Below are positions 4,313 through 62,800 of a stretch of 64,000 bases of DNA, one piece after another. The position numbers and the translations under genes are program-made. Below the pieces are notes generated by a model. That model made no database searches. It worked only from the letters and a program-made list of their open reading frames with translations, and was not told the origin of the DNA. The first letter of the stretch is position 1. Each line of letters starts with the position of its first letter. The DNA comes from Maylandia zebra (lineage: Eukaryota > Chordata > Actinopteri > Cichliformes > Cichlidae): NCBI RefSeq assembly GCF_041146795.1, contig NC_135187.1, positions 5,033,556 through 5,097,555 on the forward strand, written 5' to 3'.

Positions 4313-7721
<3,409 letters not shown>

Positions 7722-8349: not shown

Positions 8350-9769
8350 GTGAGTCAAAGTTTATGTGTGAAAGAAAGTCTTTAAATTAACTTTAGTTCA
8401 TAATCCAAGAGAACATTGTTATGTTCTCCTGTTACAAACCAGGCAGAAACAGCTCTGGGTCTAGTTGACCGCTTGCAAAAAGATTGAATCCTCCTGTCAA
8501 ACACAGTGACGCCGTACTCCTTTGTGTACAGTGTACTCTTTACCGGCTTCAGTTAGTTCAAAATGCAGCTGTGTGTCTGCGTTACTAACTGTGAAGCACT
8601 ATGGTTAACTTTATTGTTTTTAATATTTGCTATATCAATAAATTTTGGTTTGATTTGATATGTTTGGTATAGTCTTATAAGGGTCTCACACAGGCAGCTT
8701 TCACATAAATCAACCCTCTTATGATGAGCAGGCAATTCAAATTTGGGATAAGAAGCTGATAACATTACACTGTTTCCATAGTCTTAAGAAATTAAACATG
8801 TAAAGTTTTGTATTTTATTACATTTGCCGATCTTAGATTACTTTGCAGATGCTCACACAATCAGTGACTAACACAGTAACCTCGTGGTTCCTCTTAAGGC
8901 TTTTGGTTCAGTAACATGGAGCATCTATGGAAGCTGCAGGTTGTCATCAGAGACGTGGATCTTCTTACCTCCAGAACTTAAACTGCCCCTAACAGGGATC
9001 ATCTTGAAACTAAACTGAGACAGTTTTTAAAGCAGACTCAGTCACGAATCATGTATAACCTACTGCTTCTGGTTCTGTGGTACATTATTATATTGCAGCT
9101 AGTGTCATCTTTCTGCCTGAAAGACACTGTTCTAGTAGAAAGTTTCAGGTCCCTACTGTCCCTAGCTTTCTAATGAAGGAAAACAGTTTTGTTTTGTCTT
9201 TTAGGAAATCATCTTTGGACGGCTGTCTTAAAATATAATTATCTAGTTAACCACTTGAGCTAGAGCCTTCATATTATCTGGTACCATTATCTGGTACTCT
9301 ATGATTAAGAACGCTCAGGAGTGGTGTTCAGTTTAACACAGAATCACTGATGCTCAAAATCCCTAAAATATTTGAATGTGTCATCTTTGTCAGCAGGTTT
9401 TGGAGGCCAGTTTTGCAGGTAGGAGACTGATATTGTATTTACAGCTTCTCATAGACCAGGATCATAAATTTCTTTCAGAGACCAAATCAGGAAAGCAGTC
9501 CCTCCTTCTTTTGACATTTCAGATTCTAGGCCTCTGTCCCATGTATTTAGCTTTAATCTAAACTCTGATCAGAATGTAAATGTCTGAATTCTGTGTATTT
9601 ACAACATTTAATTTAAACATTTAATATGTTTAATTTTGTCAGTGTTAACGTGAATCATTCTTCCACTAGTACATGTGGAAGCATCAGTGATCCTGTAGCG
9701 GGTTTAGTTCACCTGTGGTTCTGTCAGATTGTAACAGTCTTTCCTCTCCTCCTCCCTCCCAGCTCAATA

Positions 9770-10342
9770 ATGGGCGAATATACTGGGTTGTCCCACTGTA
9801 AACTGGCTCTGGCGTTTGCCGTGTTTATGGATGTAGTGGGTGGAGCCGTTCTGCTGGTGGGGGTCTTCGCCAATCTGAAGATCCAAGACAGGGACCTTGG
9901 AGACGTGTTGGTCTACTCTGGTATGCTTGTGTGGCTTAATCAAAAACAGAAGTGGGTTGACATTAAACAGAAGTGACGAGTCAACTGGAGCGTGAATTAG
10001 AATAGAATAGAATAGAATTCAACTTTATTGTCATTGCACATGCACAGGTACAGGGCAACGAAATGCAGTTTGCATCCATCCAGAAGTGCTTTAGTGATAT
10101 AGATATATTACAATATATATTAGCAATAATATAGATATGTAAGTATATTACAGAAATGGGTCTTAATTATTAGAATTAATATAAACTCACAGTCATAGCA
10201 GCATATACATTAATTCACAAGCAGAGGAAGGAATTTTGCACATCTCTGTGAACTTTAAAGCATCAAAATTAGCTCTCTGCAAAAGTTATTATAACTTCAG
10301 GTACTCAGTGAATAGCTGTCTGCATATTTGTAGCTGTACACC

Positions 10343-11670: not shown

Positions 11671-14485
11671 ATTATGAAAATATGTTTTTTGTTTTATTTG
11701 ATTATCAGGTTTATTTAAAAGTGACTTAAATATTTAGTTTGAAACTAAAAATGCAACAAAAATAAATGTCATATTAATATTAATACAGCAATCTGTCAAT
11801 AGAGACACAACAGTAGGCAATAGCAGGACAGGTACTGCGTGCATTATGTCATTAAATGGCCTATTAATGCCATTTTATTTATGTTACAATATAACAGCTG
11901 TTAGAATTCACTATTGTATTTATTCATGGATTTACATATATAGCGAACAATACAAGACTAATATGCATATAAACCTCTGCATATGTTAGAACTGTTTGTA
12001 ATTAAAATAATTTTTCAGTTGGACAACATAATGAAGAGGAAATAAAGTTGTAATGAGGTTACAGACAGGAAAGTAGTAAAACAAAGAACAACAGAGCATT
12101 CTGACAATGCACAGAAATATCGAAAATCATACCACATTGTAATATATATAAAATATTATAATATCTATTAAGCATTTTACTCAGTGGTGTTTCAGTGAGG
12201 TTTTGACCTCCCCTGTGTCATAATCATACATACAATAAAGGCTCTCTACTGCCCTCTACTGGTGAGCTGTGGGACTTAGAAACAACAATTTCCATCTACA
12301 GCCTTTATAGTATAAGAAGCTTATGGGAGTAACTTGTAAGTTAAATCATTCAGAATTTTTAATTTAGAATTAGAAAAAAAATCAAACCAAGAGTTTCTAA
12401 AGTTTTATTTTTGCAGTCATTTCCAGATCATGTAACCAATATATATTTATACACAGTAAAACACATATAAACAAATGAAATGGTTAAACTGAGAATTATA
12501 AGAACAAAATAAAGTAATCTTGAATTTAATGGGACATGGTCATGTTTACTGCCGTGGAGCTTCCTGTCTTCTTTCTCGGTGTTTGGAAGAGGAATGTTAT
12601 CCCACTGTTATCTGATGGAGCTGCTCAGCAATCATAGGTTTTCTTTGTTGTACTTTTCATGATGATCCAGATGTTTATTTTTTAGTTGATGAAAGGTCTG
12701 AACTCCAGGCAGGCCAGTTTAACTTTCAGCCACATGCTGCTCTAAAACTTGAATATACCTTTCAGCATTCATGGTGCTGCAAGCTGCCGATTGTATAGGC
12801 ATTAATGAACCTTCATGCCATCAGACTTGCAGGCTCTTGAACTGAGCATCTTACTACCAAAAAGTTTTCTACTTTTCATCAGTTTAGCTTTGGTCAAAAA
12901 AAACAAAAAAACAGGAGCTTTTTATCCATGCTAGAGCTTTAACCTGCTCCTCAGGACTGCACAGTGAACTGTGACCTTTACAGGAGTGATTTCTGGCCTT
13001 TTCAGTTTCAGTGTTTTAGTTAACCTTAACATCCTCCATCGAAACATTAACAGATCATTAAGATAGTAGCTAGAATGGGTTTGATCTAAATGTTCAATGA
13101 TCAATATTGCATGATATCTCATCAACATAAACTATATAATTTCCACTGCTTTATTAAAAAATACAGTACAGCTACTGTTCTTTTTTCATTACATCTAGAT
13201 TTCCATCTTCAGGAATCAGTTACTATGAGTATGTATAAGAGTGCATGGGAGAGAATTACTTTACCTTTACTGGCCTCTGCTGGTGAAAAGTGGGAATTCC
13301 AACATCAGCAAACATTCAGTAAAGAACACAGCCGCACTAAAGCTACTGAGTGAATATGCCAAATAATGAATCCAATTCTAGTGCAGCGTTTGGCAATGTT
13401 TCACAATTCAATATGTGAGTAATATTACTGTGGTATGTACCATCACCCAGCCCCCAAACCTGTCACAAAATATACATTATAACCAGGACCTTGAGTACAA
13501 CCCTAAAATCAGCTTTCAATCCGGAGACCAAAATCTTCTTTACCTGCCGTGCAGCTTGGCCCAAGCTGAGGAATGAACTCCACCTAAGCTCACAATTACA
13601 GCAGCCCCCATAAAAAGCAAAGGAGAAACTAAAGACAGGAACTGATTCTGAAGCTTGATTCCTTATCTGGCTCACCTCTAACCTTGCTGCAGAAAATGGC
13701 AGACGTGTCTGCGCAAATAATAGATTACTCACTGGCTGCAGTCCCAGTAGTTAGTGATTAGATCAATTACGGAGCCTGTGGAGTAGCAGACAGACAGGCC
13801 AGTGACTGACCAATTACTAGTCAGTACTTTCTTAGAAGGTGGATGTCACATTTAGATATTTAAAACCAGAGCAATCACAGAAATAGTTCAAATTGTAGAT
13901 AATAATAAAAAGAAACTCAAAAATTTACAAACGTGAAAGCTTGTTTCCTACATGCCAAGCTGAAGAAAGTATTTTTTTAATCTCTTTCTTGTGTTTGCAT
14001 AAGATAATTTGGTCCCACAGGATTTTAAATAGCTCCATGTGGTGTCAATCCTATTTTTATTTTTTATTTTTTTGGGGGTGGAGTGCTAAATTATCAGCTA
14101 ATGCTAGCAAGCTTGATCAAATTGACTCTACAGGTAACATTACTTTAATCTTTAAGTTTAAAACATTAAATAGATGTAAGAGACTAGTAGATGATGCTGC
14201 TGCCCCAACTAACTTGCTTGCAGGGTTGCTATTTGTCAGATAATCCTATCCATGATCCAAACAACAGAAACATGATGGAAAAGTCCAGTTCAGTGACTCC
14301 AGATAGTAGAAGTGACACCTACTGGCTACAGCTGTTTGTGCTGGCCCACCTACAACACAGCTCGAACTCCAGATGCAGGTGGATGTCTCCATCCATACAG
14401 TTTTTATAAATGGACAAACTATCCATAGAAGGTATCCATGCGTTTTGATTCTGTAAAGTTGGGCATTTTAACACAGCAGTCTACA
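11671..14485. other. Intergenic sequence, one probable dispersed repeat
   Basis: AT-rich with no supported gene. At about 12560-12870 lies sequence I associate with an abundant fish repeat: a stretch containing CCAGGCAGGCCAGTTTAAC, followed by CTTTCAGCATTCATGGTGC. Its transposon class is not clear to me. The remainder shows no structure I can name. Confidence 0.4.
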
Positions 14486-14489
14486 GGGG

Positions 14490-15150
14490 TCGACTCGTTT
14501 TGTGTGCCAGCCTCAAGTGGACATTGGAGGAATGTGCAGATATTTGCACTTCAGTGTTGGAAAGGAGGTGTTTAAGTATCTTGGGGTCTTGTTCACGAGT
14601 GATAGGAGAAAGGAGCCGGAGATTGACAGACGAATTGGTGCAGCAGCTGCAGTGATGTGGACGCTGTACCGGTCTGTTGTGGTGAAGAGAGAGCTGAGTG
14701 TAGAAGCGAAGCTCTCAATTTACCGGTCGATCTACGCCCCTACCCTCACCTATGGTCACGAGCTGTGGGTAGTGACCGAAAGAACGAGATCGCGAATACA
14801 AGCGGCGGAAATGGGCTTCCTCCGAAGGGTGGCTGGAAGTTCGCCCGTTCGGGAGGGGCTCAGAGTAGAGCCGCTGCTCCTCCACATCGAAAGGAGCCAG
14901 TTGAGGTGGTTCGGGTATCTGACAAGGATGCCTCCTGGGTGAGGTTTTCCGGACTTGTCCCACCGGAAGGAGGCCCCGGGGCAGACCCAGGACACGCTGG
15001 ATATCTGTCGGCTGGCCTGGGAACGCTTTGGTGTTCCCCCGGATAAGCTGGAGGAGGTGGCTGGGGAGAGGGAGGTCTGGGTTTCTCTGCTTGGGTTGCT
15101 GCGCCCGTGACCCGGTCCCGGATAAGCGGAAGAAAATGGATGGATGGATG
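14490..15150 (+). mobile_element. 5'-truncated RTE/Rex3-like LINE with GATG tail
   Basis: The frame from 14502 to 14942 encodes the C-terminal part of a non-LTR ORF2: FKYLGVLFTSDRRKEPEIDR, then LTYGHELWVVTERTRSRIQA, then LLLHIERSQLRWFGYLTRMP. A frame break at about 14940 moves the reading into another frame (GPGADPG region). The copy ends in GATAAGCGGAAGAAAATGG plus three GATG units at 15139-15150. A short 3' end with GATG repeats is what I recall for fish Rex3/RTE elements. It lacks the endonuclease and most of the reverse transcriptase, so it is dead. Confidence 0.7.
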
Positions 15151-25167: not shown

Positions 25168-26288
25168 GTAGGAGACAGAAAGAGCTGAGCAACACTTGCA
25201 AGATAAATTCTGATTATAAGGAGTGTGGAAACACTAAGGATACTGTTAGACTTATTACTTTATGGCATCTTAATCAGGTGTTGTTCAACTCAATTTAATG
25301 AGCAATGAATTTTTATTTCTTAATGGTTAAATTCAAGTTTTTTGACTTGAAACTGAAACTTTTCTTTGTTTTAGTTTCTCTGTTTTACAGCTCACAAGAA
25401 ACATTTATCCAAAACTGAATTTTTGAAAATATAATTAAGAGAAATTTGGTCCTATTCACTTATGTTTCTCACAGACGAATTCATTCATTTTATTAAAATA
25501 ATCACTTGCACAATTTTTTGGGTATTTTATAATTTGCAAGGAAACAACATTTTTGTTTTCATGTAATGATGTTGGATCTAGATATTATATCAAACAAGGG
25601 TCTTCCAGTTGTACAAATGTTCACTACAAGCTTAGCTGCAGGCTGACTTTTGAAGACCCTTACCAGTGTGTAAATTTAAAGCTATTGATTGACTGTCACT
25701 TATAGATGCAATCACTCATGTGAAGATACATTTATGGTTCGGCCATTTCAGTTTTTGTTCAACATTGGTAATGAAAATGTAAACTTTGGAAAGCACAGCA
25801 TTTTTCCCCATGAAGTAATAGATAGATAAGACTCCTAAGTATGGATGAAGCTCATTATAGAAACTTACCGGGACTAAATAACTCTGAGTACAAGGTGCCC
25901 TCAGGGGCCAAGATCATGTCTATTTGAGTCCTCAGTTGCAACCTGGCTTGGTGCTTATTTTAAGAGATCAACAGGGTAGAGACTTGCACACTTCGATGTC
26001 GATAAGCAAGGACTTTACTTTTGACCTGAAATGAACCTTGTCACCTATTGCTGGAAGTACAGATGGTTGAGTGGCTTAAAGAGCTTACCATACGACTGTT
26101 CTTTTCACAGCTTTTGCGTTGGTGGGCTGAATAGCAGGCGAAGACAGGATCAAGAGGGCTGTTACCCCTTTAACAAAGCAGAGGAGGTAACTTCTTAGGT
26201 TAAAGTTGGGTTATAATTGCCCTAGAAGAGCCAGGGGCCACATATTCACTCTCAAATAAAGCTCTAAAACATCACTAAAACACCAGCA

Positions 26289-28688
26289 ATGGGAAATAGC
26301 AAGAGCGGAGCTGTGTCCAAAGAGATCCTGGAGGATCTGAAGCTCAACACCAAGTTCTCAGAGACTGAAATTGTCCAGTGGTATGAAAACTTCAAGAAGC
26401 AGTGTCCAAATGGCCGCATCACAAAAGAGGAGTTTCAGACAATCTACACCAAGTTCTTTCCAGAAAGTGATGCCAATACATATGCTCAACACGTCTTCCG
26501 CTCCTTTGACACAAATGACGATGGCACTCTGGACTTCAAGGAGTACATCATTGCCCTCCACATGACATCAACAGGAAAGACCACCAGGAAACTCGAATGG
26601 GCCTTCTCGCTGTTTGATGTGGACAAGAATGGATACATCACCAAGTCAGAGGTCTCGGAAATCTGCACGGTGAGTGAAAGGGTGGTGATGAAGTGCTAAA
26701 TCACTGCTTTTCCTTTAGCTTTGGCTTCTAGATGTTTGCACACTGTTTACAGAAACAGGTGGATTCACAAGAACAAAGTTAGACAAACGTATTATCTGCA
26801 TAGAAGATCATGTTAGACTGTCTTGAACTACATGTGCAACCTGTAAAATAGCAAAACAGGCCACTATAGTTGAAATTAAGACTCCAAATATGCTTGAATT
26901 CTGAGCCTAAATATGGGTTTACATTTTCATTTTCTTATATATGATCATAAATAAAAAATAATTTATTAATGCTGATAAATAGATTGCATTTAACTTAATC
27001 CTAAAGAAATAGACATAATCTTGCAAAGTTTTACACAAATGTTGAAATGTCTATAGGTAAAATCCTTGGTCATGTCCTTGGTAACAGGTAATGTCCTTGA
27101 TGTAAATATGTAAAAATTGTGTATGTTTCTGTCCTGTGTCTTGTGTACTGTTTGTTTGTATATGTGTCTTTCTTGCTGCTGTTACACCCAAATTTAACTT
27201 TGTGGGACAATTAAAGGATTATTCTATTCTAATATGTCACAACGTAGCCTCGGTTTTCCACATATTCGTTTTTTTACTCTTAGTAAGTGAAATGTTCTAA
27301 TTTTAATACATTTCAAAGAAGCATGACAGTATGTTAGCTATTAAACTTTGAATAGCAAATGAAGTATAACGGAAACAAATGTGTGATGGGCACACAGGAT
27401 TATTTAAGACAGTGTTTGAGCTTGTTTGATGTCATAAAACCTTGCAAAAATAAAGCACATTGAGGCAATATTTGATATGATCTGGAGCTATAAATGTACA
27501 AATAATATAATAATACAAAGTAAAATTTAACCGAAATAATTTGAATGGAATTGAAAATTAATCAGTTTTATCTACCGGCCACTCGAATTAATTTTTAGAG
27601 AGAAAACTGCAAACCTTCATCAATAAGCACCATCATTATTTGTTGACAGTATGCAGACAAATATAAAAAGGCACTTAGAATTATATAAAGCCAGTGCCTT
27701 CTCACTTTAGTTTTTTGTGCCCACAGTAGTGCATCCTCCCTGATATGTAACAAAATTATTCGGTTTACATTTGGAAAAATAAATTTTTTTCATATATTCT
27801 TAAGACAGGCAGCTGAAGAGTATTACTGTGCTGTGTAGTGTTAATGTATCTTTATATTGCTTGGAAACCTTATTAGAACAGCCACATTTCATTCTTAAAG
27901 ATTAGTATTCATATATTCACTAAATAAAGCCAGAGAGACCAAAAGAGCTGGTTGGTTAATCTGTAGAATCACAGCAGTTTGTTGCTGTTTTTGTTTGCGA
28001 GGCAGCTCATCAGCTCATAGATGTGACAAAGCGGTTCAGATTAAAGGAGGATTTGGGGGCAATGGCTCCATTTCCCTCTGCAGCCACAAAAATAGATTTT
28101 ACTGTATACAGCTGTAGCTCACACAAGTGAAATCTTTTCTCACTTTTCACCAAATTTTGTTATTTTTCCCTTGACAGGCAATTTTTAAGCTGATTCCCAA
28201 AGAAGAGATTGAAAAGTTGCCTGAAGATGAAAACACAGCTCAGAAGAGGGCAGATAAACTCTGGAATTATTTTGACAAGGGTGACAACGGTAAGAAATAG
28301 TGAAGACGTATATGGACATTGAATATGGACAGATAAGTAGATCACACTTGCAATAGTGAAAACACTGGTTTAGAAGTAAATCCCTGAGGAATGTGACAAA
28401 TCTGGTAGTCATAGGTTAGGCTACTGGATTGTAATACTATCAAAGTAAATGACATTCCTCAATTACACAGTTTGTATTTGCAATGCCTTTTAAGTGTATC
28501 TATGTTTAATGTCCATCTTTGAAGACTTCCTTTCAGTTTTTGATATTACTCCAAATAAACAAAACTAATAAACTATAAGAAACTTTTTTTTTCTCTTTGC
28601 AGACCGAATTGCAGAAGGAGAGTTCATCCAGGGAATTTTGGACAATGACGATGCTCTTCGCTTGATTCAATACTCACCTTTAAAGTAG
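26289..28688 (+). CDS. rcvrn: Recoverin (neuronal calcium sensor of photoreceptors)
   Basis: Three coding exons, 26289-26669, 28178-28289 and 28603-28688, give 192 aa with phases 0 and 1. MGNSKSG is a classical N-myristoylation start. EF1 is the non-binding type with the conserved Cys39-Pro40. EF2 (DTNDDGTLDFKE, 74-85) and EF3 (DVDKNGYITKSE, 110-121) have canonical loops. EF4 (DKGDNDRIAEGE, 160-171) keeps Asp1 and Glu12 but has Gly at position 3 and Asp at 6, so binding is doubtful. Recoverin is a calcium-myristoyl switch protein that inhibits rhodopsin kinase in rods and cones. The product ends at SPLK and lacks the short lysine-rich tail of human recoverin (200 aa). Fish have several recoverin paralogues, so the exact copy is uncertain, but the family call is firm. 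Confidence 0.9.
27120..27232 (+). repeat. Retroposon 3' tail in recoverin intron 1
   Basis: AACTTTGTGGGACAATTAAA followed by GGATTATTCTATTCTA matches the ending style of dispersed fish L2/SINE copies. Only the tail is recognisable. Confidence 0.4.
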
Positions 28689-33051: not shown

Positions 33052-40130
<7,079 letters not shown>

Positions 40131-42980
40131 GACTGTGTCTCAACTCAAAAGCAGCCAAATGAGAAATGAAATGGTTTTGGCAAGTGTGTGTCAAAAATAG
40201 CTGCAAGAGCCAGACAGGTTCTGGTGACCTGTCTGGAGCAGAAGATTGGGGAGCTTTCTGCAATAATACAATAGAGATTGAAAATAAAGTGGTAGGAAAG
40301 AGACAGAAGTGAGGAGAGGGGATTAGTGGTATTTGAGAAGTGGAACGAAGGACGGAGGGGAAGATAAAAAGTAGTCTGTTGGAGAGATAGAAGTAGGGCA
40401 GCGCTGGAGAAGGAGAGCTAGCGCTGAGCAAAGGTCAAATAACAGTGGAATAAAGAAAGATGAAGCTATGGGATTTAATCTTTTCCAGCAACAAGAGACA
40501 GATGTGCGGGCCAGAGGATGCAGGGGGAGCTCTAACTCTCCTCCTGCTGCAGTGTCACTTAAAGGAAATAAGCATGATGAAGAGAAGCAGGCCAGGTTTA
40601 AATTTGGGACCTTTGTTTCCGTTTGGAGACTTTGGTCACAAATTTAGCCCATGTTTCTACTGCAGTCACCGCTCGGGTCTCATATTAATATCTTCTCCCC
40701 TCTCAGATAAAGACAAACATCTAAATCTTATCCTGTGGATTTTGAGACTAATCGGTTCCACTCTCAGGGCACATCCCGTTCTTCAACCTGTTCCTCCACC
40801 TCAGTGAGAGGGATTGAACTCATGAAGAAGTGATTAGTCCAGCGTCTCAGGCCTACCTCGTGGCCTGGTAATCTGTGGTAATCTTGCGGGGTTAGGTGGA
40901 TGAGTTTAATGCTTACTGACACTCATGCTGTCATTGTCTGAACGACCACCTAAGAGAGGGAAAAACAGATGATGGAGGCAAAGATCTGGGATTAGGAGTC
41001 ATGAAGACAGAGTCACGTCTATGTCCAAGTAATTTGAGCTGCACTTAATCCTGCCAGGTGCCACATTTGTAAATTGGTTATATTTAATACAACGTATTAG
41101 ACTCAAATCATTAAACTACAATCTGATGTAGCAATATAATTCTGGGATAGGGTCCACCCCCCTGTGATAATATAATATAATATAATATAATATAATATAA
41201 TATGATTCCATCAGACCATATTGTATTGTATCATGTCCTATTGCAACACATCATACATTATAAGCACAAACGTATTGGGCCTGACCTCTTGATCACCAGT
41301 TCTTGTGTTCTCTCTGCTTGTACACAAGCAATTACTTAAAAAGATTCCACTGAAGTCTGAATGTGTGCAGATTTTGTAGTAAAAGCAATTAATTACAAAT
41401 TACGATCAGTGTGTCAGAAACATACAGATCATTAAAGACGTCTAGAACATGAAAAGCACCATTTTTTAAATAAAAAAAAGTGTGTCTGTTTTCATATTTG
41501 AAATCATATTTCCCAGTATTTGACAGTTTTCTTTTCAAAATTTATTATCCACTAAATGTGAATTAAAGTGTTGATAACTATAAAAAATTAGGTATTTCCA
41601 ATTTCCTATTTTAGATCAAGTTTGATGGGCATCACAGCAGGAGTTTCTCTGTGTACGCTATAAACACAGATTGATTGACGAGGCACTGAGGTTTAATTTC
41701 ATCTTATCAAATCAGCGTGAGGCAAACCTATAATCCACACACTCCACAAATGCATGTACTGTTCTGCTGGATTATTTGGTACCACGCACCTGACCACGTC
41801 ATCAGTATAAAAGTCTAAATGATGAAGACAAACTGCACAAAACCTGAAATTCAAAGATCCCTAGAAGGAGAGGGGCTGAGCTGAGAGTGCTACCGCTATT
41901 TATTTATTTATTTTTTAGATTTTCCACAGACATCACGATAAAATCATTGTCAGGTTTAACACAACAATGGTGACGATCCGATATGGTGACACCTTCCTCA
42001 AGACATTCATTTTTACTGACTCTGATCTCAGTCTTAGATTAGAAATGCTGGTTTTACTGAAGATGTCAGCGATAGAAAAACTGAATTAACACAGCTCGTT
42101 GAAGCATCACAGATTTCCATAAATACAAGTAAAAAAATATAGTTTCCCTGTTTGAGAGAGCTCTTTGTTTCATCTCATCAGTAAACGCTGAAATCCAGCT
42201 GCTGCCGATTGATCGGCTTACACTTGCAGAACATAATGAAAAAAAAATCTACTTACCTTTCCTTGGATCTCAGGAGAGGCTCTTTTTGTGTTTCCTTCAC
42301 CTGTCTTCAAGCAGGGTTCCAGTTTCCTTCACCTTTCTTTTTCATGCTCCCTTATTACTCCCTCGTGCTTCTTTGGGTGAGTTTCCATCAGAAACCCACC
42401 CAGATTTCCCTCTAATCCTCCCAAGTCCATCTGTTACTTTCCCTCCCCTTTGCTCCCTGCAGTGTCTTTTCCTCCACTCTCACTCTCGCCTCGCCTGCCT
42501 TCCTCATCACGCCTCCTCTCTCAGTCATGGCCTTGCTGACCTGTCCTTCTATAGATTAATTTGTATACATGGTATAGAAAGGCTTAGATTGAGACGAGAG
42601 CTGGTGTTGTGATTGTAATTCTGCTCCTTTAACTCTGACCCGTCTTAACACAAGTGAGGTGCAGCTACTGTTTATACTGAGTGATGACTGCACAAATCAC
42701 TGGGCCGTGATTAGAAAATGATTTTGAGTTTGCTGGATGTTTTCTTGCTTCAGTTGCCTTTGTGGTCTGTTGAAATGAAACATCTGTTTTGTTGCTACAC
42801 CTTAAAAAACGTTTTTAAGAACTTCTCCATCTGTATCCTAAGATGATGCCAAAACCTTACCAACACTCTCTAATTATCAGTCACCAGTCAGAAATCATGT
42901 GAGGCCCAGCTTTGGTTTTCTTATCTGGTTAGTCATCAACATTGCATACTATTGTGAAAGTGCTTTAAATTGCTAATGTT
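40131..42980. other. Upstream region of the GSG1-like gene
   Basis: No coding exon supported. An acceptor-like GAGTTGAGACACAG stands 2 bp before the ATG on -, so a noncoding first exon probably lies upstream, but I cannot place it. A (TAATA)n tract lies at 41168-41202. Pyrimidine-rich DNA at 42330-42520 is not clearly a gene. Confidence 0.35.
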
Positions 42981-47999: not shown

Positions 48000-50900
48000 T
48001 CAGAACAGGAATGGATTATTTTTGTTCACCATCTCATCTGACCCGCTGCCTGAGACGACTTCAGCGCCAGCCTGTGGGACGGAGCCTCTAAATTGACCGT
48101 CACCTGATGGGTGATTTCCTTGAAAGACACCTGAGTGAATCATTCCAGTTCCCATTAAGATGGAGCCTGGATATCCAAACTGCACCATTCCCACTCCTCC
48201 AATGGGGGAGTTAATGTTGTGTCCTAATTGTGGACTCTCATTGATATAAATGGGATGTATCATTTGTGTTTCTGGACCTATCTGAGATGCCTGAATCATA
48301 CTGATGGAAGAATTAGACATTTCCAGAGTATTCAATGATGCTGAAGGATTGTTAGCTCCAAAAGTGGGAGTTGGTGCACCATGGGGGGAAGCTATGGTCG
48401 AAATGAAAGGGTTGGAGTATGAGGGTGATGTTTCAGCAAAAGCTCCTGGTTTTAGCAAAGGGCTGGATGTCATGCCCGCTGTTTTGAAAGTGCCTGGGAA
48501 ATCAAGGAGAGTGGCAGGAAGATGGAGGGTTGAGGGGGAAGGACGGAGGGAGGGAGTTAAACACAGTTTGAAGAATTCCAGTAAAGAGAAAATGTGCCAA
48601 GGCAGAGCAGAGAGAGGGGTGAGAAGGGTTATACATCTGCTGGTTAATGTACACTAGTCTTTATACAGAGTAACTTCACTAATGCTCTCTCACACACACT
48701 AATGTACAGAACAACATCTACACACTACAGCAAGGCCACAGGGGCAGGAAGGGGAGGTAAAACACACGACCACAATAAGTTTCTCCATACAAACCTACTG
48801 ATAAATATTAGCCATCACCCCTCTCATCTTATCTTTGAATGACTTCAGACGAACACAAGTGGAATGCATTTTTAAAATCAGCAGGGAGTGACTTTCATTT
48901 GTCAGGTCTTCGAGGGTGTTCATGCATCCGTTTGAGTCAAGCGCACCACAAATATTTCCACATGATGAATTTGTCAGAAAAGTTACTTTTCACCCAGACT
49001 GACGCGTCATTTTTTCTGTCCTTACCGATGGCTTGTGTTTGGGCGTCAATGAGAGGGCGCTGTCTGGGTTTAGGGTCAGATGAAAACAGATCGTCCAAGT
49101 CAACCAGTGATGCCTCTGCTGAGCCCAAGAAGGAAGCAGTCTTTCGATACATCGCGTCTTCCTGCTTCGAGTGCTTTCCTGCAATAAAATAAAGGTCCAG
49201 TTCTACTCTAAAAGGTGTTTTCTTTTGGGGACAGGTCAGGGAAGAAGAGAGAGCAAAGTGGAAGAGAAGGTTAATAGATTAAGACTGTTAGGTGACTGCT
49301 GACTGACGGGGAAATGAGGATGAAAACAAGGAAAATGGTGACAAGTGCAAATCACCATGTATGGACACAATAATGAAGGTTTAACGAGTCCCCACTTTCA
49401 GGATATTAATTAAAGACAAGCCAAACATTTAGTCAATTAAATCAGAGCAGAGTGTGTTATAGGTGATTATACACAGACAATCAGTGTTTGCTCATGGGAA
49501 TAATGGATAAATGACACAAACATGTATTCAGACAGTGTGTAGAATGTGATGTACCTGTGCCATTGCCACTTGTGTTGCTTGATGCACCCCAGGGGTCATT
49601 GGATTTAGATGCTCCATCTCCAAAGGGGTCACTAGATGGGGAGGAGTCTAAAGGTGGAGCAGGTGCACCCCATGCATCGTCTGTACTGGCAGGAGCCAAA
49701 GCTAGATGAGTAAATTAAACAGACAGGTTCAGGTGATGGAGAAATAAATGACAGAATTAACTCCTCTGGTTATTCCAGAGTTTTGGACCATGCTACTCAG
49801 CCTTCTTCAACAAAGACATAAAGGTGCCACATGTGATGTAAGTACAGAAATTCAGTCACAGGTCTTTCTACAACTAATAAAAATCAGTTTCCAAAATCAG
49901 TTTTCATTCATGACTGTGTAGCCACATCAGACACCACCTCCATTGTCAAGTTTGCTGACGACACTGCTGTTGTGGGCCTGATCTCCGACAACATCGAGAA
50001 GGCCTACCTGGAGGAGATTAGGAACCTGGAGACCTGGTGCCAGGAGAATAACCTCCTCCTAAACATCAGCAAGACTAAGGAGCTGATCGTGGACTTCACT
50101 ACAAAGCAGGCGAGGAATTACAAACCCCTCATCATCAGTGGCACCACGCCAGTGGAGAGAGTGGACAGTTTCCGATACCTGGATGTCCACATCACTCAGG
50201 ACCTGTCATGGTCCTGTCACATCAACACCCTGGTTAAGAAAGCCCGTCAGCGTCTCTTCTTCCTCAGAAGACTTAGAGACTTCCATCTGCCACTGAAGGT
50301 GCTCAAGAACTTCTACTCCTGCACCATCGAGAGCGTCCTGACGGCAAACATCTGCACCTGGTTTGGGAACAGCACCAAGCAGGACAGACGAGATCTGCAA
50401 AGGGTGGTGCGCTCGGCAGAACGCATCATTCAATCAGAGCTCCCTGACCTGCTGTCCATCTACACCAAGCGGTGCAAGTCCAAAGCTAGGAAGATTATGA
50501 TGGATCTCTCCCATCCCAACAATGGACTCTTCTCACTGTTGAGGTCTGGGAAGTGCTTCCGCTCCCTTAAGGCCAAAACAGAGAGAATGAGGAGGAGCTT
50601 CTTCCCCCAGGCTATTCAGGGCCTGAACCAGGTGTAGGACTGGACTCTCCCAAACACGTCACTATAAGACTGGACTCTCACACACGTCACCACACATTTC
50701 CTATAATCCTATAATTCCTATAATTTATAATCCTTATCTTTATAATCTCTTCTGCTATTTGCACATTCTTTACTGTAAATTCCTAAGTTAATTTGTAAAT
50801 TTTTGTAGTAAAGTGTAAATTGTAAATATTGTAAAACTTTTCTTCTGTCATTTAATGGTCGGGCATTGTACAGCTACAAGCATTTCACCCCCATGTCATA

Positions 50901-52772
50901 CTGTGTATGGTTGTGTGTGTGTGACAAATAAAATTTGAATTTGAATTTGATATGCCTTTTTGTGAATGTGTGCACTTTAAAGTGCCATGTAAAACTCCAC
51001 AGTGGAAATGAAAGGCATATACACCTACTTACAATGCATTCTCAGTGCAAGGAGTGGTGAGCACAGCAGCCCCACCCACCTTCTGTTGATAAGGGTCAGC
51101 CAATGAAAAAAAGTTGGCATCTTTTTTCAGATAAGTATAACAGTCATTTTGAACTACGACTAATTCAAACCGGTTAGAAGTTAGCAAAATTCTTCAGCTT
51201 TACGTTCTGAGAAGTACCATCCATATACAAGTATTTATTTGTTTGTTTCTTACCTGAAGGCCCCCATGGGTCATTGTCTGCTTTGGATGCATCTCCAAAT
51301 GGATCAGAATTACTGGTAGGTGAAGAAGCACCTGCCGTGGTCCCCCAGGGATCTGACCCGGTGGCTGGTGGAGAAGTGGCTGGGGCTCCCCATGCAGCTG
51401 TGCTACTCTGAGGCGAGCTCACTAGAGGGGCATCGAAGGGATCTGTGGCATCTATCTTTGGTGGACTGGATGGTGCTGTGAATGGGTCTTCTTTAGGTGG
51501 TGTTGTTGGTGCAGCAAAGGGATCTTCCTTGGTCGGTTTAGATGTTGTGGAGAAGGGATCCTCTTGAGGTGGAGATGTTGGGGCAGCGAAGGAGTCATCT
51601 TTTGCATGTAAAGATGGTGTAGAGAACGGATCCTCTTTGGGTGGTGTTGTTGGTGCAGCAAAGGGATCTTGAACAGGTTTGGTTGGCACTGAGAAAGGAT
51701 CTTCTTTAGGTGGTGTTGTGGGAGCAGTGAAAGGGTCCTCTTTCCCTGATGACGGTTCTGCAAATGGGTCCTCTTTAGGGGGTGTTAATGCTTTTGCACT
51801 GAAGGGATCATCTTTTGGAGAGCTAAATGGATCGTCTTTAGGTGCATTAAATGGATCATCTTTAGGTGCATTAAATGGATCGTCTTTAGGTGCATTAAAT
51901 GGATCGTCTTTAGGTGCATTGAATGGATCGTCTTTAGGTGCATTGAATGGATCGTCTTTAGGTGCATTGAATGGATCGTCTTTAGGTGCATTGAATGGAT
52001 CGTCTTTTGGGGTAATGAAAGGATCTTCTTTAGGGGCACTAAAAGGATCATCTTTTGGGGCGATAAATGGGTCATCTTTTGGAGCTTTGAAAGGATCATC
52101 CTTTGGAACATTAAACGGATCATTGTTAGAAGAGCTGAAAGGGTCTGGTTCATCTTTCTGAGCAGCAAATGGATCCTCCGTGTCTTTGGGGGCACTGAAA
52201 GGGTCTGAACTGTCCTTTGGGGTGTTGAAAGGTGTTGATGCACTAAAGGGATCTTCCCCATTTTTCGGTGCCGCAAAAGGATCTTCCCCATTTTTCGGAG
52301 CCGCAAAGGGATCTTCCCCATTTTTTGATGCCACAAAAGGATCATCATTAGTTTGATCTGCTGCAAATGGATCTTTATCAGGACTTGTTGGAGCCCCCCA
52401 GGGACCACTGCTAGCTGCTGTTTCAGTTGTGTCAGGTCTTGAGGGGGTGCCCCATGGATCTACGGCCTCTTTAGGTTCTTTGGGGGCTCCCCATGGGTCC
52501 GTTTTTACTTCCTCTTCTTTCTCTCCTCCCCAAGCATCAGTTTTAACATCAGAACCTTTATTAGCATCCTCCCATTTTAGCTCCTCTTCACTCATCTTGG
52601 CCTAGCATATCGTTGCAAAATGGTTAATACAAATAATTCATATGCCATAATAATTTCATATACCAAAATGCTATATGCTGTGGCTAACCTCCATTTAATG
52701 GCACAATACAGACGATAGTTGTTCTTAATCAGCACATACAGTAATTAAAAATATATAGCTAGGTTAGACTCT

Positions 52773-52864
<92 letters not shown>

Positions 52865-55800
52865 TAGTTGCTGGATAGACTGCAGGTTCTTGGACTGAGG
52901 CAGCCCTAAAAACCAATGGAGATCAAACTGCAACACATCATAGGAATCTGCAATGGGCTTCTCAATATATAACTTCTGCCTATTGAGATTTTTTTGTTTA
53001 CTTTAATAAAACAGAAGGCCTTCAAATGTAAACACATTGGCTAAATGTTTGGAGTGTTTCCTCGTTAGCCTACCATTTATCGGCAATGGCTTTTTATCTG
53101 AAATAGAGCCTCTTGGCAGCATCATATTGGCGTAATGTTCGATCTTTCTACACCTGTGCACTGTACTTACCCGTCTCTCTGTTTCTTTCTTCTCAGCTTC
53201 CTGTTTAAGCCGCTCTTCTTTGCGGGCGGCGAAGGAAGCTGTCAAGTCAGCTACAGAGGGTATGTTGTCCAAGGATGGAAGCCCTGAGGCCCCAGGTACA
53301 TAACAGGGCTTATAGTTTGGATCCTTGACGTTGTCCGTAGATGATGCTGGTTAGAAAGTAAGCAAAAGAATATAAATGATCAGTGAAGAAAACCTGTTGG
53401 AACAACAGTATATAGCAGTGATATAAAAAAAAAGGCTTACCAGCTGCACTTTTTGATGTCTTTTCTCTGGTTTTGACAGCAAACTCTCTCTCTTCCTTTA
53501 GTTTCTCATCGTCCTCCATAAGAACAAGAACAACCTTGGCCTTGTCTCTCACATTTACACCCTAGCACAAATATGGCTACAATAAGCGTTCACTTGGCTC
53601 TGACCATTTCAGAAAAATTATTTAAGCCTGAAATACTTGTGCTTGAAGAAAACCCCAATGCTTTTTGCTAAACAAGATCAGAACTATTCAAGATCTAATT
53701 TAAAACAAACTATAGCACATGATTAAAAAAAACAAAAAAAACAAACAAGTTTATTCATGCTGTAGAGAAATTAAATGTGTTTGTTACTCTGAAAAGGTTT
53801 TCAGTTAGGAGTATCTTAAGGTGATTGAGGCAGCAAACCTAGACTACACTTTCATTCTTGCTGTAAACCTGGTCTGAAGGTTAATGACATAAATATTATA
53901 GTACCAGTAACTGTCTTAATGCATAGCATGAAATCCTTTAATGGAACCTAAAAGACTACATCCATTTGACATAATCAGGAAGTGTGTATCACCTGATCTT
54001 TGCCATCCTTTTCTACAAAGCGGTACTCTGTGAGAGCTTTGACAATGTAGATGTTGTCTTTCATCTTCAGAAGCACGCGATCATCACCGGTCTTCAGCAG
54101 GTACTCCAGGAGTGTCAGGGACTAGGATAAAAAACACATGACAACACAAACTCATTTATATACAATAAAAATGCAGTTTCCTATCACTACAATGCTTCTT
54201 GTTTTATCTGCATTAGGGAATAAATAGGACAAGTAAAAAGGAACAAAAAATATTGGTGCAATGGATGAAAGATAAGAAAAACAACTGAAAAGACATAATT
54301 TCTCTGGAACTGATGAGCCAACACTGAGTCATGTGGCTGACTGGCAAAGCTGAAATGGAAGCAGTGATACGGCTGATGTTCAGAAAGTAATAACTGCCAC
54401 TTAATAGACTAAACTGTGCTTTTAAAGAGAAACTAAATATATTTTTGCTGTAAGGTTTTTTGTTTTTTTTTTAAACACTAAATATTAAAAAACTTTACAA
54501 AGTTAAATGTTTATTTTTAAAACCTTGCATATTCCTATATAGATACTGTACATGCTACTTAGATGAAGAATGCCTTCTATCTTCTCTGTTGGTCCCATCA
54601 GGGGGTCGTGACAGCAGATCAACTGCCTCCATCTCACCCTATTCTCCGCATCCTCTTGTGTCACACCAACCCTCACACCAAGCTGATAGAGGGTTCCCTA
54701 TGTGCTAGCTTACTGTTATGCTGTTCTACTGAATTCAACTTACACAGTCTGTTTTATTAGATTATTTTTGCTTTTCATTTGATAATGGCTGCACAGGAAA
54801 CAAGTAGAAACAGTGTTATGAAACTTAAGGGTAAGAGGCTTGGGGAATAGTTGAGGAGTTTAACCAATGCAACAATCCTTTTATTGTTAATCACAAAAAT
54901 AAAACAAAAGCTGTGGTATATGAGGTTTTACATGCTGCCCTCACTCTTATTCAAACAATCAACACTGCGATGGATTAAAACTCAAACTAGTTCTTTTGTG
55001 TTAATTTTATTGATTTATTGTTTCCTGTGACAGATGACTTCAGTCAGTCATTCATGTAGTTTGGAGCAAACTGCAACACACAATCTGTACAGCCATGTTT
55101 TGAACAGGCACAATCACACAGACATATTCAGTGACTGTATCGTGTAGCTGTATCAACATAACATGATTTTGCATGTGGTGCATTAAAGGGACATCTGGAA
55201 ACTGTAGCTGCAAAAAAAAATAAAAAAATAACCCTCACTTCAGATGGGCACCGCATTGTAGAGATGAGTAACAGAAGACAGAAACTGACTATATCTGAAG
55301 ATGAATGTTTCCCATCTTTTTTGTGAATAAATGGACAATTCCACACTTAACATCTCATCCCCGAAGAATCCAATATATGTCTGAAACCAGCATCTATCCT
55401 CTAAAGCAAACCCTTCTTTGTTCCAGTGTTACTCCTTCACCGTCGCTCACCTTGTGGATATGTCTCCAGTTCTTGTCGTCTTTCAGCCGTTTCCAGAGCA
55501 TTGTCATGATCTCATTACAGGCCACAACGTTGTACGTTAGGTCGGAAATGTCGGCCATCTGAGAGCTGGATGGGCCCCATGGGTCATTGGATGTCGCCTC
55601 TCTCACCTGCAACAGAAGTAAAGAGAGTAGAAAGATGCCAAAACAGCTTCAGGAAAGTTGAAAGTTTGAGATGCTAACTTATAAAATGTTAACATCAGGG
55701 TTTTGGAGGACTGGCAGCAGCAGGGCATCTCATTACATGAGCCATGCTACCAAAGATGTTTAGTAATCAGTTCTCAAGGACATTATTGATCATGTTTGAG

Positions 55801-56275
55801 ATCAGCATCCAAAAAAGGAGTTCATCTCTATATTTTCTTTGACTCTAAGAAATTCAGGTTCAGGGCTTAAAATTGATGGTTTCTGCTTTGTTTTAATTAG
55901 TAGGGTTTTTACTTGAGTAACCCTTTAGTCACTCTAACCTCTTAAAGTATAAGCAATTGTTACCACACCAGACGACTTGAATTTAAAGCTACTAGTGTTC
56001 AAACACATGCCAGAAATGTATTATTTGTTGTGCATACAATGATGCACAGACTACATAATAAATATTTACCTTTATTGTCCTCCTAAATTTAACCTACATA
56101 ATTTTTAAAATATTATTTGCATTACTGGATGAGGTAATATTGAATTGAAAGGCTGAAAACATTATGGTTTTGAGGTCATACACAATTTAAATCTAGCTTC
56201 TCCTACCTTGACCTCGGCCTCAGAGTAGTTCTGGACCAGGTTCTTCAGCTGTCGACGGAGCATAGAAGACGTCAT
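48000..56275 (-). CDS. Epsin-like endocytic adaptor with expanded DPF repeats
   Basis: Nine coding exons, 56275-56207, 55606-55451, 54121-53993, 53561-53441, 53346-53171, 52601-51254, 49701-49555, 49178-49026 and 48493-48000, give 930 aa; human epsins are about 580-640 aa. The ENTH domain (about 1-145) keeps the PI(4,5)P2-binding Arg7, Arg8, Lys11, Arg25, Asn30 and Arg63 and the motif VREATSNDPWG. It diverges later (YLLKTGDDRVLLKMKDNIYI). Residues 218-715 hold about 33 DPF and 5 DPW motifs, binders of the AP-2 alpha ear. LVDLD (about 730-745) is a clathrin box with the epsin context SFLG..ASLVDLD. Two NPF motifs for EH domains are in the last exon, including the C-terminal NNPFLF. Canonical ubiquitin-interacting motifs are missing. 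The family call is firm; which epsin paralogue (EPN1, 2, 3 or a fish-specific one) is not clear, so no symbol is given. Confidence 0.85.
49900..50952 (+). mobile_element. 5'-truncated L2/Rex1-like LINE in an epsin-like intron
   Basis: An open frame from about 49900 to the stop at 50635-50637 encodes the reverse-transcriptase palm with KFADDTAVVGL (catalytic ADD) and the thumb and C-terminal region (ISKTKELIVDF, FRYLDVHITQDLSWSCHINT, RSFFPQAIQGLNQV). About 300 bp of 3' UTR ends in ACAAATAAA and (TTTGAA)n. The frame is unbroken, so insertion is comparatively recent, though the 5' part is absent. It sits antisense to the host gene between exons 49701 and 51254. Subfamily is by resemblance. Confidence 0.75.
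51841..52008 (-). repeat. 24-bp coding minisatellite (7 DDPFNAPK units) in the epsin-like gene
   Basis: Seven exact-length 24-bp units lie in frame, each encoding DDPFNAPK. The only differences are Phe TTC/TTT and Asp GAC/GAT, all synonymous. Flanking sequence carries more divergent DPF units of the same 8-residue period (DDPFKAPK, DDPFIAPK, DDPFSAPK). Confidence 0.95.
52772..52864. repeat. (CTA)n trinucleotide microsatellite
   Basis: About 31 CTA units in the intron immediately 5' of the large DPF exon of the epsin-like gene. Confidence 0.95.
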
Positions 56276-57990: not shown

Positions 57991-59429
57991 GGACTCGAGC
58001 TTGAATAATAGACCACCTGCAGGGCCGAGACGGGAATTAGCCACTGTTTCCCTAATGCTTCGCTGAGGCATGTTAATGCCAAGTTTTGCCTTGTCATTCA
58101 GTGACAATCATTTTTTATTTGTTGTTATTTCTACAACATGCATCTGCACAAACTTTTTTAATTAATTATTTAGAAAATTCTGTTAAAGTGGATGCTCAAT
58201 TAGCTCGTAGGCTAAGCAAGTCAAGATATGCTGCAAGGCTAGATGCAGCAGCCCATGGTTGACTCCAACCTGAGGTTATTTGCTGTGTGTCCATGTAATC
58301 TTCACTGTGCTATTAAATGAATTCAAAAAAGCCCCCAAACTAAAAAAAAACAACAACTAAAAAGCAGTCTGTTAACGCTTTTGTCAGATGATAGGAATCA
58401 TTATAGTTGCTAGTGCAGAGGCAAAACTCTTACATAAAAATCTAAATGTCATGCATGGTGTAGATGCCACAAATGGAGAAAAACACTGTGAAAGACACAG
58501 TCAAAGAACTGCTCTTTCATTCAGCTATGAATACTGGTTTCCCTTTGAGCCCGAAAACCCCCCCCAAAACCCTTCAGTCTGCAGCTGCATATAAAGTTAT
58601 GTTTTTTTTTGTACTTCACTCTGGACCAATACAACTCTGACCTACTGGCCTGCTTTTTAATCTACAACTCAATTGATTTTGACGATGGCAATGCCACATA
58701 TAACAGTAATCAATACACAAATCATATGCAATGCAACTATATGTTCTCGCGCATGAACAACACAGTGACATACCTTCAGTAAAATCGTCCTCTGTTGTAA
58801 AAGTCTAACTTTCGGTTGTATTTGTGCAGCTCCTGGCTCAGTTAGCATTCATCCTGCTGATCCCCTCTTCCTCCTGCCTGCATTGGTTTGTCTGAGGATG
58901 TCAGAAACCAGATCCTAACGCTGCAATGAGAAACCAGTCAACATATAAAAGAGCTGACCAGTGGGAGGTACACATAACTGACTGCAAAGCGTAAACTAAC
59001 CTAATGTAGGTGACAGCTTTGTCACTGCGACAAACATATATCCCCACCTACGTTAGCTCAGAATCTAGCTGAGCTACAAGCTAGTTAGCTACCAGGGCAT
59101 GTTAGATAAATTTTAAGAAAAGAAAAGATAAAATTGCATGTTTAGCGCAACTGGATACTTAGTCTTAGGATACGCAGTCGTGGTGTTTGTAACAAGAGTC
59201 AGGGTAGGTGTTTTCAGGACCTCGGAGAGCGACTGAAGACGGTCAGCAGGCGTCAATATGGCTAACAGCCAAGCGGTGTTGTCAAGGCAGCGAGCTCCAT
59301 CATAAATATCCGATTTTAGTGTTCAAATGGTGGGATATATTCCACGAAACGTCCCCTGCTTTTAGTTCAAAACTACAACTGACGTTTTGCATATCAAACA
59401 TGCATATTTACAGTAAAAATAAAGCACTA

Positions 59430-59893
59430 ACCATGAGCAGATATTCAGGAATCTTCGAGGAGACGACACGACCGGACGGTTTCCGCTTCCGCAGTTTTCA
59501 GCACCTGCCAGGCCACGCCCCCTCTCAAAATTAGTGTTATTTATGTCTTTATATATTTATTTATTCATTGATTGATTTAAATTCCCAATATAAACAATCT
59601 AGTTCTCTTTTGTGCCAAAAAATAATTTTCTTTTTGTTTAAAATTTAAAATATCATTCAGTTTTATGGTAGTAAAGTATAATTTTTTTTCTGTTGCCTAC
59701 GGTTACGGTCTAAGCTTTAAATGACGTCGTGTGTCAGTTAGGTCCCCCTGAACCATACACACATACACACATGCATACACACACACACACACACACACAC
59801 GCATACACACATACACACACATGCCCCCGTTTGAAAAGAGCTGAATAAATGAGTCACTACCACAACTCCCACATCAATAACAGTTGGACCAAG
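59430..59893. promoter_or_regulatory. Divergent promoter between the epsin-like gene and necap
   Basis: CpG-rich DNA at 59450-59520 includes paired ETS-type cores (TTCCGCTTCCG at 59481) and a GC box (CCACGCCCC) on the epsin side. On the NECAP side CCAAGATGGCGGCC is a YY1 consensus overlapping the start codon. The putative first epsin exon and the NECAP ATG are about 0.4 kb apart. A mixed (AC)n tract (59757-59820) lies between them. Confidence 0.5.
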
Positions 59894-62800
59894 ATGGCGG
59901 CCGAGGGAGAGTACGAGTCGATCCTGTGCGTTAAACCCGATGTCAACGTTTACCGTATCCCGCCGCGAGCTTCAAACCGAGCGTACAGGTAAAGACACAC
60001 CAGTGTCTCGCTGATGTTGCTGTGAAATGCAGTTTAAATGCGTTTGTTGGGCGGGTTTGGGTGTTGTACTTTAACTGCTCGATAGTCAGCGCATGCTTTA
60101 CAAATCACGGAGGGACAGTGCTGGCTTTATGCTCTGATGTCGGAAGCAGCTGATGAGATGAAAGTCCATCTCCAGGTGTTGTGAAGATGAAGAGAGGCTG
60201 AAATGTTGGTTGTTTGGTGTGCGGGGATTCGCTGAGCTGTCAGAGATGTGACCGGGGGTATTTGTCATCATGCTGGCTCGATACGGGCGGCTTGCCAGGA
60301 TAGTCCCACTCTCCTCTGTGACAGCTGGGATGTCTTCTCCACAAACTGTTCAGGCTCTTCAGTCTGAAATCTTCTGTTTGCTTTTAATTGATCCTTTCAG
60401 ATAAAATCTTCAAATCCATCCCGCTCTGCTGCACGGCTGTATTAACTTCCTGGAGCCGGGAAAAGATGTGCTGAAGCACTCCTTTCTCCCTGCACCTGTT
60501 CCCTGAAACCCACCAGATGAAATTATTAGCTGATATTCATGGGATCCTGCTTTTTTTTTAAAATATGTGAACATTTGCTAATTCCATAGTTTTCTATGTT
60601 AGTCACCTTAACAGCTTTTGTTTTTTTCAATCTAAGTTAATGGTTTTTTATTTAGGAATGAAGAAAATTGTTGGCTGCAGCCATGATACCTTCACGTACA
60701 ACCATGTTATGGAGTTCTCTGTCCCAGTCACAGAAGCAATTAAATCAAAGAGTTCAAACACTTTTTTTTCCCTAATAATTGCATATAGCTCTTTTAAGCT
60801 AGAATAATCCCCAAATTGTATCTCTACAAATTAGTATTTACTATTATCATTACTTATCTAACAGTTAATTAGTTCATACTTCTAAGAAACATGCCATTAA
60901 TAAAAAATCTTTTTAAATAAGTCTAATTTTTATAGTGTAATGTCTAAACAAGAGTTGCCGTAAGGCGCTTAATACTGTAAGGTAAAAAACCTTACCTAAC
61001 CTAAAATTGAAAATAAGGGAGCCATCTGAGAGTAAAGTGCTCTGTTGGGGTGCAGTAAACAGTGGTCATTAAGATCAGATGGTGATTATTCAAGACCTCG
61101 TATGTGAAGAGAAGGATTTTTAATTTGATTCTGGATTTAACAGGGAGCCAGTGAAGTGAAGCCAGAATGGGAGAAATATACTCTCTCTTTCAAGTCCCTG
61201 TTAGTACTCTGGGTACAGTGTTTTGGATCAACTGAAGGCTTTTTAGGGAGTATTTAGGACATCCTGATAATAATGAATTACAGTAGTCAAGTGATAAATG
61301 CATGAACTAGTTTTTCAGCATCACTCTGAGACAGGGTATTTCTAATTTTAGCGATATTGCCAAATGCAAGAAAGCAGTCCTACATATTTGTCTGTCATGC
61401 ATGCTGATGGAGATATCTTGGTCAAAAATGACTACAAAATTCCTGAAGTGTTACTGAAGGCCAAGCCGAGTAATGTGGAATAACATGACTCTAAGAGGAC
61501 CTTGTTAGTGCACCCCTCTACTGCAGGTGTAGAAGAATATCCGACCATAAATTTAGTAATAAATTACACTAATTAAAAATAATTTGAATTGATCACGCAA
61601 CACAAAAATATAACCCAAAACAAAATCTCTGTTTAAAAAAAGGTGACGTGTAAGTGTCAGCTTTTACCATCCTTTTTGTTTGTGAGCCAGAGCTCCAATG
61701 TGTAAAATAAATGCATATTTTCAGTGTAATCAAAGTAATTTGCTTTGTGATTCTGGAACGTCTAAAAGGGCTCTGGAGATAAACCAGGAGGCTCAAGATT
61801 TCTTTTAAAGGGGTACGAATGGAGGAAAAATGGGCCCATTTTTACCCATTTCTCTGTAAAATGCTCTTACACTTTCAATAGTATTTTAAATTAAACTGCT
61901 AAAAAGTAAAATTACTTTTCATGACATAACCACATTAAAGCAATAACCTTGGATTTTTGCTTTTACAATTAAATAAATAATCCCACTTTAATATGTGCAG
62001 CCTCCACTAATGGTTTGTGGCTCCTGAGGCAGCACATATTAAAACTGCAATAATGAAAGTAAATGAACACCTAAATCAAGAAATATCAGAGAGAGAAAAT
62101 AAAGATTCTCCTCATTTAAAATACACAAATCCTTTTAATACCACCTTCAAACATTTGTTAGATGTTAGAAATATAAATTTTCAACCAAATATCACTGAAT
62201 CTCTCAGGATTTTATTGTTCAAAATAAGCAATAAAAAGAAGTCACTTTGGACTACATATTAGTGTCAGTGAAACAAGTGAAACCTCATTGGACTTTTGTC
62301 AGCACTCATGAGGCCACATTATGACCTGAAAATAAATAACTGTTTAAGCAGCCCTGGATTCTAATCATTTAATCTAAAGGTTATTAAATTCTCTAAGAAT
62401 TAAAAATACATTACAAGAAGCATCACTTCTCTTTCCATTGTCTGTTTTGTAGCTTTATTTGGTGATATGCAAATAGGTAAATGTCTATGCACTCTAGTAT
62501 GCCTCAAGCCCTGTAATCCACTATGCCAATCACACCTCAAAAGCCAGGTTTGGGTTATTCTTTAAGCAGAAATGTACTGTATTAGTAGCCTGAGTTGGAG
62601 CATTTTCCTGATTTCTTTGTCTTGTTTGGAAGCCATTTACAATGTTTTTTTTTTTGTTTTTTTTTTCCTTTAGAGACAAAGCAATTAACAGAGAGAATAA
62701 CTAACATTTAATTGAAATGTAACCAGACTAACTGATAGTTGCAGCTCTGAAAATGCTAAACTATGTCAAATAATTTCTGCAGGGCAGCTGATTGGAAGCT

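Follow-up and report, generated by a model that had tools for sequence, protein, structure and literature searches.

The influence that short binding motifs exert on coat assembly through their number and spacing is an open question, usually studied with engineered constructs. The window, by which we mean the whole stretch of 64,000 nucleotides analysed, contains an epsin-type gene that bears on this question. Its product combines an ENTH domain with a long linker crowded with DPF motifs. A natural epsin with 33 DPF motifs, a spacing that fits AP-2 and no detected ubiquitin-interacting motif (UIM) would allow the clustering of AP-2 by epsins to be told apart from their part in handling cargo; should the repeat number differ between individuals, natural alleles would amount to a valency series. 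The preliminary description of this DNA had observed the motif-rich exon, to which the missing UIMs and a coding minisatellite are now added. The reading that we consider probable is that this divergent epsin paralogue is a multivalent ligand of the AP-2 alpha-appendage, with its array under selection for DPF and lacking the spacing for strong binding to the muHD of FCHo/SGIP1.

A nine-exon gene of the epsin family

The coding sequence occupies nine minus-strand exons between 56275 and 48000, which join in frame into a protein of 930 aa, and this length, already given in the preliminary description, was reproduced from the assembled coding sequence. All exon junctions are GT-AG and the splice phases match (Table 1). 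Downstream of the ENTH domain, motif matches place the clathrin-binding pattern LVDLD at aa 740 and NPF, the EH-domain pattern, at aa 794 and 926. The earlier assignment to the epsins is supported by the ENTH domain together with LVDLD, NPF and DPW.

Table 1. Features of the epsin-type gene, its repeats and neighbouring genes (positions in the window)
Feature	Position	Strand	Content	Basis
Coding exon 1	56207..56275	-	start codon; ENTH helix-0 region	gene model and ENTH alignment to 1h0a
Coding exon 2	55451..55606	-	ENTH, with conserved NDPWGP	
Coding exon 3	53993..54121	-	ENTH	
Coding exon 4	53441..53561	-	ENTH end	
Coding exon 5	53171..53346	-	charged stretch, ENTH to linker; UIM not found	
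Coding exon 6 (giant)	51254..52601	-	aa 218-666; 32 DPF, 4 DPW	
Coding exon 7	49555..49701	-	1 DPF, 1 DPW	
Coding exon 8	49026..49178	-	clathrin-box pattern LVDLD	
Coding exon 9	48000..48493	-	two NPF; C terminus NPFLF; stop	
24-bp coding tandem array	51824..52121	-	12.4 copies, 89% matches	TRF
36/72-bp coding tandem array	51469..51743	-	12-aa units, including lost motif DSF	TRF
30/60-bp coding tandem array	52245..52375	-	10-aa units	TRF
EF-hand protein open frame	26268-26699	+	recoverin-like by eye	Pfam
GSG1-like protein exon	39870-40139	-		Pfam GSG-1
TMEM238-family exon	9617-9976	+		Pfam
CCDC106-family exon	5854-6123	-		Pfam

The giant exon 6 spans 1348 nt between an AG acceptor and a GTAAG donor, in phases that agree with the adjoining exons. 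Its only internal GTRAG site is a GTGAG at 51422 (-), located after the DPF block. Use of this donor would remove 169 nt, leave 1179 nt and enter exon 7 in phase 0 instead of 1, causing a frameshift, and a pyrimidine-tract-plus-CAG pattern has no match within the exon. Because the donor would break the frame and an internal acceptor pattern is missing, removal of the array by splicing inside exon 6 looks unlikely; skipping of the exon as a whole is possible.

The ENTH domain (aa 17-139) is recognized by Pfam PF01417 at E=1.4e-47. The other families listed at E<=1 in a scan of all 930 aa, ANTH (0.013) and DUF6288 (0.082), both fall below the cutoff. Rat epsin-1 (1h0a) is the closest PDB match, with E=5.3e-63 for the rat epsin-1 ENTH, and the PDB E-values are 2.7e-65 for epsin-1 versus 2.3e-41 for CLINT1/epsin 4. 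Where the two sequences align without gaps, the five PI(4,5)P2-site residues of rat epsin that were compared (R8, K11, R25, N30 and R63) are all identical, and lipid binding is predicted. Yeast and rat epsin numbering differ by one residue, and the site has further ligands. The yeast equivalents of the site are R7, K10, R24, N29 and R62 (PMC6723200).

Within the family, the domain stands apart. ENTH identity is 62% both to rat epsin-1 (96/154) and to zebrafish epsin-1 (85/138; 5lp0, identified as zebrafish epsin-1 in PMC6723200 and PMC11507603), 60% to EPN2 and 59% to EPN3. This places it at 59-62% from each of EPN1-3, which share 79-92% with one another (provisional EPN2 and EPN3 sequences). 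Since zebrafish epsin-1 is well conserved (128/139 ENTH residues, or 92%, identical to rat) while this ENTH is only 62% identical, a different family member that evolves faster is the likelier identity of the gene, and it looks like a divergent epsin-family paralogue. With none of four inner branches of the ENTH tree supported, we leave the paralogue unnamed. CLINT1/epsinR (1xgw, 2qy7) and ENTHD1 have the ENTH domain in common with it, at 47% and 53% identity, respectively (provisional sequences).

Like epsin-1 (EPN1; rat 1h0a, zebrafish 5lp0), the protein has an ENTH domain, a DPW linker, a clathrin box and NPF, in the same order as in human epsin-1; it differs in that no UIM was detected and that 33 DPF stand beside the 5 DPW. 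Epsins in general carry DPW, NPF and clathrin sites (PMC6912373). For human epsin-1, 8 DPW and a region of 240 aa have been modelled (PMC7787433), compared to 33 DPF and 5 DPW in a linker of 489 aa here. Pattern scans for epsin relatives gave 4 matches in viral and 38 in prokaryote contigs, none of which was confirmed as a relative. A PDB match of aa 406-524 to OCM3 (9ufe, E=0.00054) was taken as low-complexity, the best E with a shortened linker being 6.9. Among the listed titles and abstract openings of open-licence PMC papers, no description of a DPF-rich or UIM-less vertebrate epsin was recognized, which does not prove absence.

Pfam detected no UIM either at E<=1 across the 930 aa or at E<=10 in aa 146-252. 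In human epsin-1, the UIMs sit between ENTH and linker, to which the exon 5 stretch is equivalent. A strict UIM pattern has no match in the three minus-strand frames of 56400-47900, including the intron sequence at 53440-53347 and 53170-52602; a loose pattern matches four times in the same frames, never in the coding frame. As a positive control, a provisional human EPN1 stretch returned UIM at E=1.7e-6 in two stretches. By eye and next to a human UIM, LTASFAARKEE (aa 193-203, exon 5) resembles a decayed UIM without its Ala and Ser, a likeness too weak to claim. UIMs are stated to occur in every mammalian epsin and to be lacking from the epsin of Dictyostelium (PMC6912373), which makes the latter similar to this protein by description, albeit in a distant organism.

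Probable growth of the DPF array and apparent constraint on its codons

A recount of the 930-aa protein recovered the 33 DPF and 5 DPW reported earlier as lying mostly in the giant exon: exons 6 and 7 contribute 32+1 DPF and 4+1 linker DPW, and a sixth DPW belongs to the ENTH NDPWGP. In the linker as cut here (aa 218-706), 33 of 35 Phe sit in DPF; of the others, one is part of TPF and one of DSF. Over 20,000 shuffles of the linker, DPF occurred 1.01 times on average and never more than 7 times. Against repeats such a null has little force, so the codon evidence below is weighted more.

The motifs are not intermingled. The block from aa 294 to 606 holds 31 of the 33 DPF and no Trp, and linker DPW lie before it, at aa 252 and 265, and after it, at aa 634, 661 and 702. 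The flanks also carry drifted DPW-like units (DAW twice, GPW and AAW). DPW on both sides of a Trp-free DPF block argues for expansion and against replacement, and the simplest reading, with a presumed order of events, is that DPF units expanded inside a DPW-type epsin linker. This layout does not sustain the "lineage-specific shift from DPW to DPF" that had been proposed, as DPW is kept on either side of the block and the gene has the look of a paralogue that has diverged and lacks UIMs, rather than of the counterpart of mammalian epsin-1.

In protein order, the units are mostly 10 aa long, then fifteen DPFs follow exactly 8 aa apart, and then the units are mostly 11-13 aa; at the DNA level, the 24-bp array is flanked by the 36/72-bp array on one side and the 30/60-bp array on the other. 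Its core consists of seven 24-bp units (aa 418-473, 168 bp) that are pairwise identical at 22-24 of 24 bases and differ by T/C at third positions. This core looks like a recent coding minisatellite. Given seven near-identical units, the motif number of 33 is probably variable, and the young-looking core suggests that it probably varies between individuals as well as between species. As read from their sequence, the outer units are older than the core; DPF has 12 DNA spellings.

Such a structure raises the question of whether the array is mainly a minisatellite in coding sequence that a disordered linker can tolerate, where slippage adds units, a few motifs suffice and the number means little. 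That the seven units are so alike, that exon 6 also contains the 36/72- and 30/60-bp arrays and that P, D, A, S and K abound in the linker, which is hence disordered-like (judged from composition), all speak for this explanation. We compared pN/pS over all 35 Phe-anchored linker units, DSF and TPF included, between motif codons and the four adjoining spacer codons. Motif codons have a pS of 0.95 and a pN of 0.027 and spacer codons a pS of 0.68 and a pN of 0.461, figures to be read with the understanding that codon counts from different pairs depend on each other and that Phe anchoring misses units that lost Phe. Dropping six core copies (29 of 35 units kept) leaves the motif pN at 0.033 and the spacer pN at 0.505.

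The individual blocks can be viewed separately. Motif differences in the 8-aa block amount to 145 synonymous and 0 nonsynonymous ones, and in the 12-aa block, with DSF, to 48 and 7, respectively. The 10-aa block has 41.5 synonymous and 17.5 nonsynonymous differences with TPF but 44 and 0 without it (the unit at 370 then stands in for it); the corresponding motif pN is 0.086 with the TPF unit and 0 without it, and the spacer pN is 0.498. The low motif pN relative to spacer pN suggests that selection keeps the DPF triplet. Diverged units retain DPF while their synonymous sites are saturated and their spacers variable, and the triplet is lost in 2 of the 35 Phe-anchored units. This speaks against a tolerated minisatellite, which we regard as a minority possibility.

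Motif spacing and candidate binding partners

Which partner would a DPF array of this kind serve? A single DPF peptide binds the alpha-appendage with a Kd of ~100 uM, compared to ~21 nM for a region of Eps15 (PMC4731787). AP-2 uses single DPFs, for which strict intervals are unimportant, whereas the Fcho1 muHD needs di- or tri-residue spacing (PMC4921775). The high-affinity muHD site of FCHo/SGIP1 consists of consecutive DPFs with 2-3-residue linkers (PMC4731787, PMC4921775). Not one of the 32 DPF-DPF linkers in this protein is 2-3 residues long, which indicates that a strong muHD site is absent, and 14 of the 32 have 5 residues. We infer a protein tuned to AP-2 avidity with muHD binding that is weak at most, and its motif and spacing make a high-valency AP-2 alpha-ear ligand plausible.

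The likeness to Eps15 in DPF density, raised in the preliminary description, holds for the count but not for the spacing: 33 motifs exceed the 15 of human Eps15 (PMC7787433), and their intervals are unlike those of the muHD-binding part of Eps15. Eps15/Eps15R and this protein have in common a lengthy, disordered-looking region in which DPF for the AP-2 alpha-appendage are numerous. Eps15/Eps15R have EH domains, and the Pfam scan of 930 aa (E<=1) lists no EH here; the DPF pairs 2-3 residues apart that form the strong muHD site of Eps15 are absent as well. Tight binding of Eps15 to the alpha-appendage involves two sites, one presumably DPF and the other a different, unknown sequence (PMC4731787), so DPFs alone may not bind the alpha-appendage tightly. 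Eps15b has multiple DPFs yet binds alpha-adaptin poorly in vivo (PMC2767346). Moreover, modelled Eps15 conformers could hold up to 10 AP2-alpha on 15 motifs, and those with 4 bound are under-represented in the epsin ensemble (PMC7787433), from which it follows that not all 33 DPF need be usable together.

The same motifs could in principle make the protein an Eps15-like hub for muniscins (the muHD of FCHo1/2 and SGIP1) or for DPF-binding EH domains such as that of POB1, instead of AP-2. Eps15 DPFs do bind muHDs, for which a 5-residue linker provides a low-affinity site (PMC4731787) of the length found in 14 of the 32 linkers here, and the POB1 EH domain binds DPF (PMC2238750). A hub for muniscins would be expected to offer the 2-3-residue linkers of the high-affinity muHD site, and their complete absence (0/32; PMC4731787, PMC4921775) makes this alternative unlikely.

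If the protein is instead a multivalent AP-2 ligand, as we favour, its ENTH domain would anchor it at the PI(4,5)P2 membrane and the DPF array would bind many AP-2 alpha-appendages, each of them weakly. Avidity and fast rebinding would then keep AP-2 and clathrin together at the forming pit, and NPF would connect the protein to EH-domain proteins. Without UIMs, its task would be to cluster the coat as an adaptor more than to capture ubiquitinated cargo as a receptor. Tandem duplication within one exon, in units of 24, 30 and 36 bp, would have built up the array, with selection retaining DPF. A decaying gene or an assembly artefact, which the divergent ENTH (62% to epsin-1) and the potential of an assembly to collapse or expand the repeat core might suggest, is very improbable in view of nine intact, in-frame coding exons with consistent phases, constrained DPF codons and a near-identical core of just seven 24-bp units (168 bp).

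Genomic surroundings

A NECAP gene, of which coding exons 1 to 4 run from 59894 to ~63370 (+), matches Pfam DUF1681, which we take to be the NECAP family, at E=1.4e-50; its start at 59894 (+) lies head to head with the epsin-type gene (-). NECAP is an AP-2-binding coat protein. Over 59000-60199 (36-49% G+C), CpG observed/expected is 0.81-1.10 versus 0.36 for the window. The two genes may share a promoter, with which the little CpG depletion between them is compatible without proving it. Non-coding 5' exons of the epsin-type gene were noted by eye. It is tempting to go further and picture that, in this lineage (probably of fish), an epsin ceased to recognize ubiquitin and turned into a protein dedicated to clustering AP-2, with its valency set by a coding minisatellite, its avidity varying heritably with repeat number and its expression possibly co-regulated with NECAP through a shared head-to-head promoter; we consider this extended scenario doubtful.

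Five of eight fragments given to Pfam, lying farther off, match a family (NECAP, EF-hand, TMEM238, CCDC106 and GSG-1), and the other three match no family at 0.01. CCDC106 and TMEM238 lie near EPN1 in human, and relatives of these neighbour genes are found at human 19q13, 17p, 12p13 and 1p36. This hints at an old linkage group that may be partly kept around the epsin-type gene and is no proof of orthology.

Repetitive sequence also surrounds the giant exon. A perfect (TAC)n of 30.7 copies occupies 52773-52864 in the intron before it, and the intron after it contains an open frame (49837-50637, +) that appears by eye to be the tail of a LINE-type reverse transcriptase. A second reverse-transcriptase-like open frame, likewise judged by eye, lies at 14472-14942 (+).
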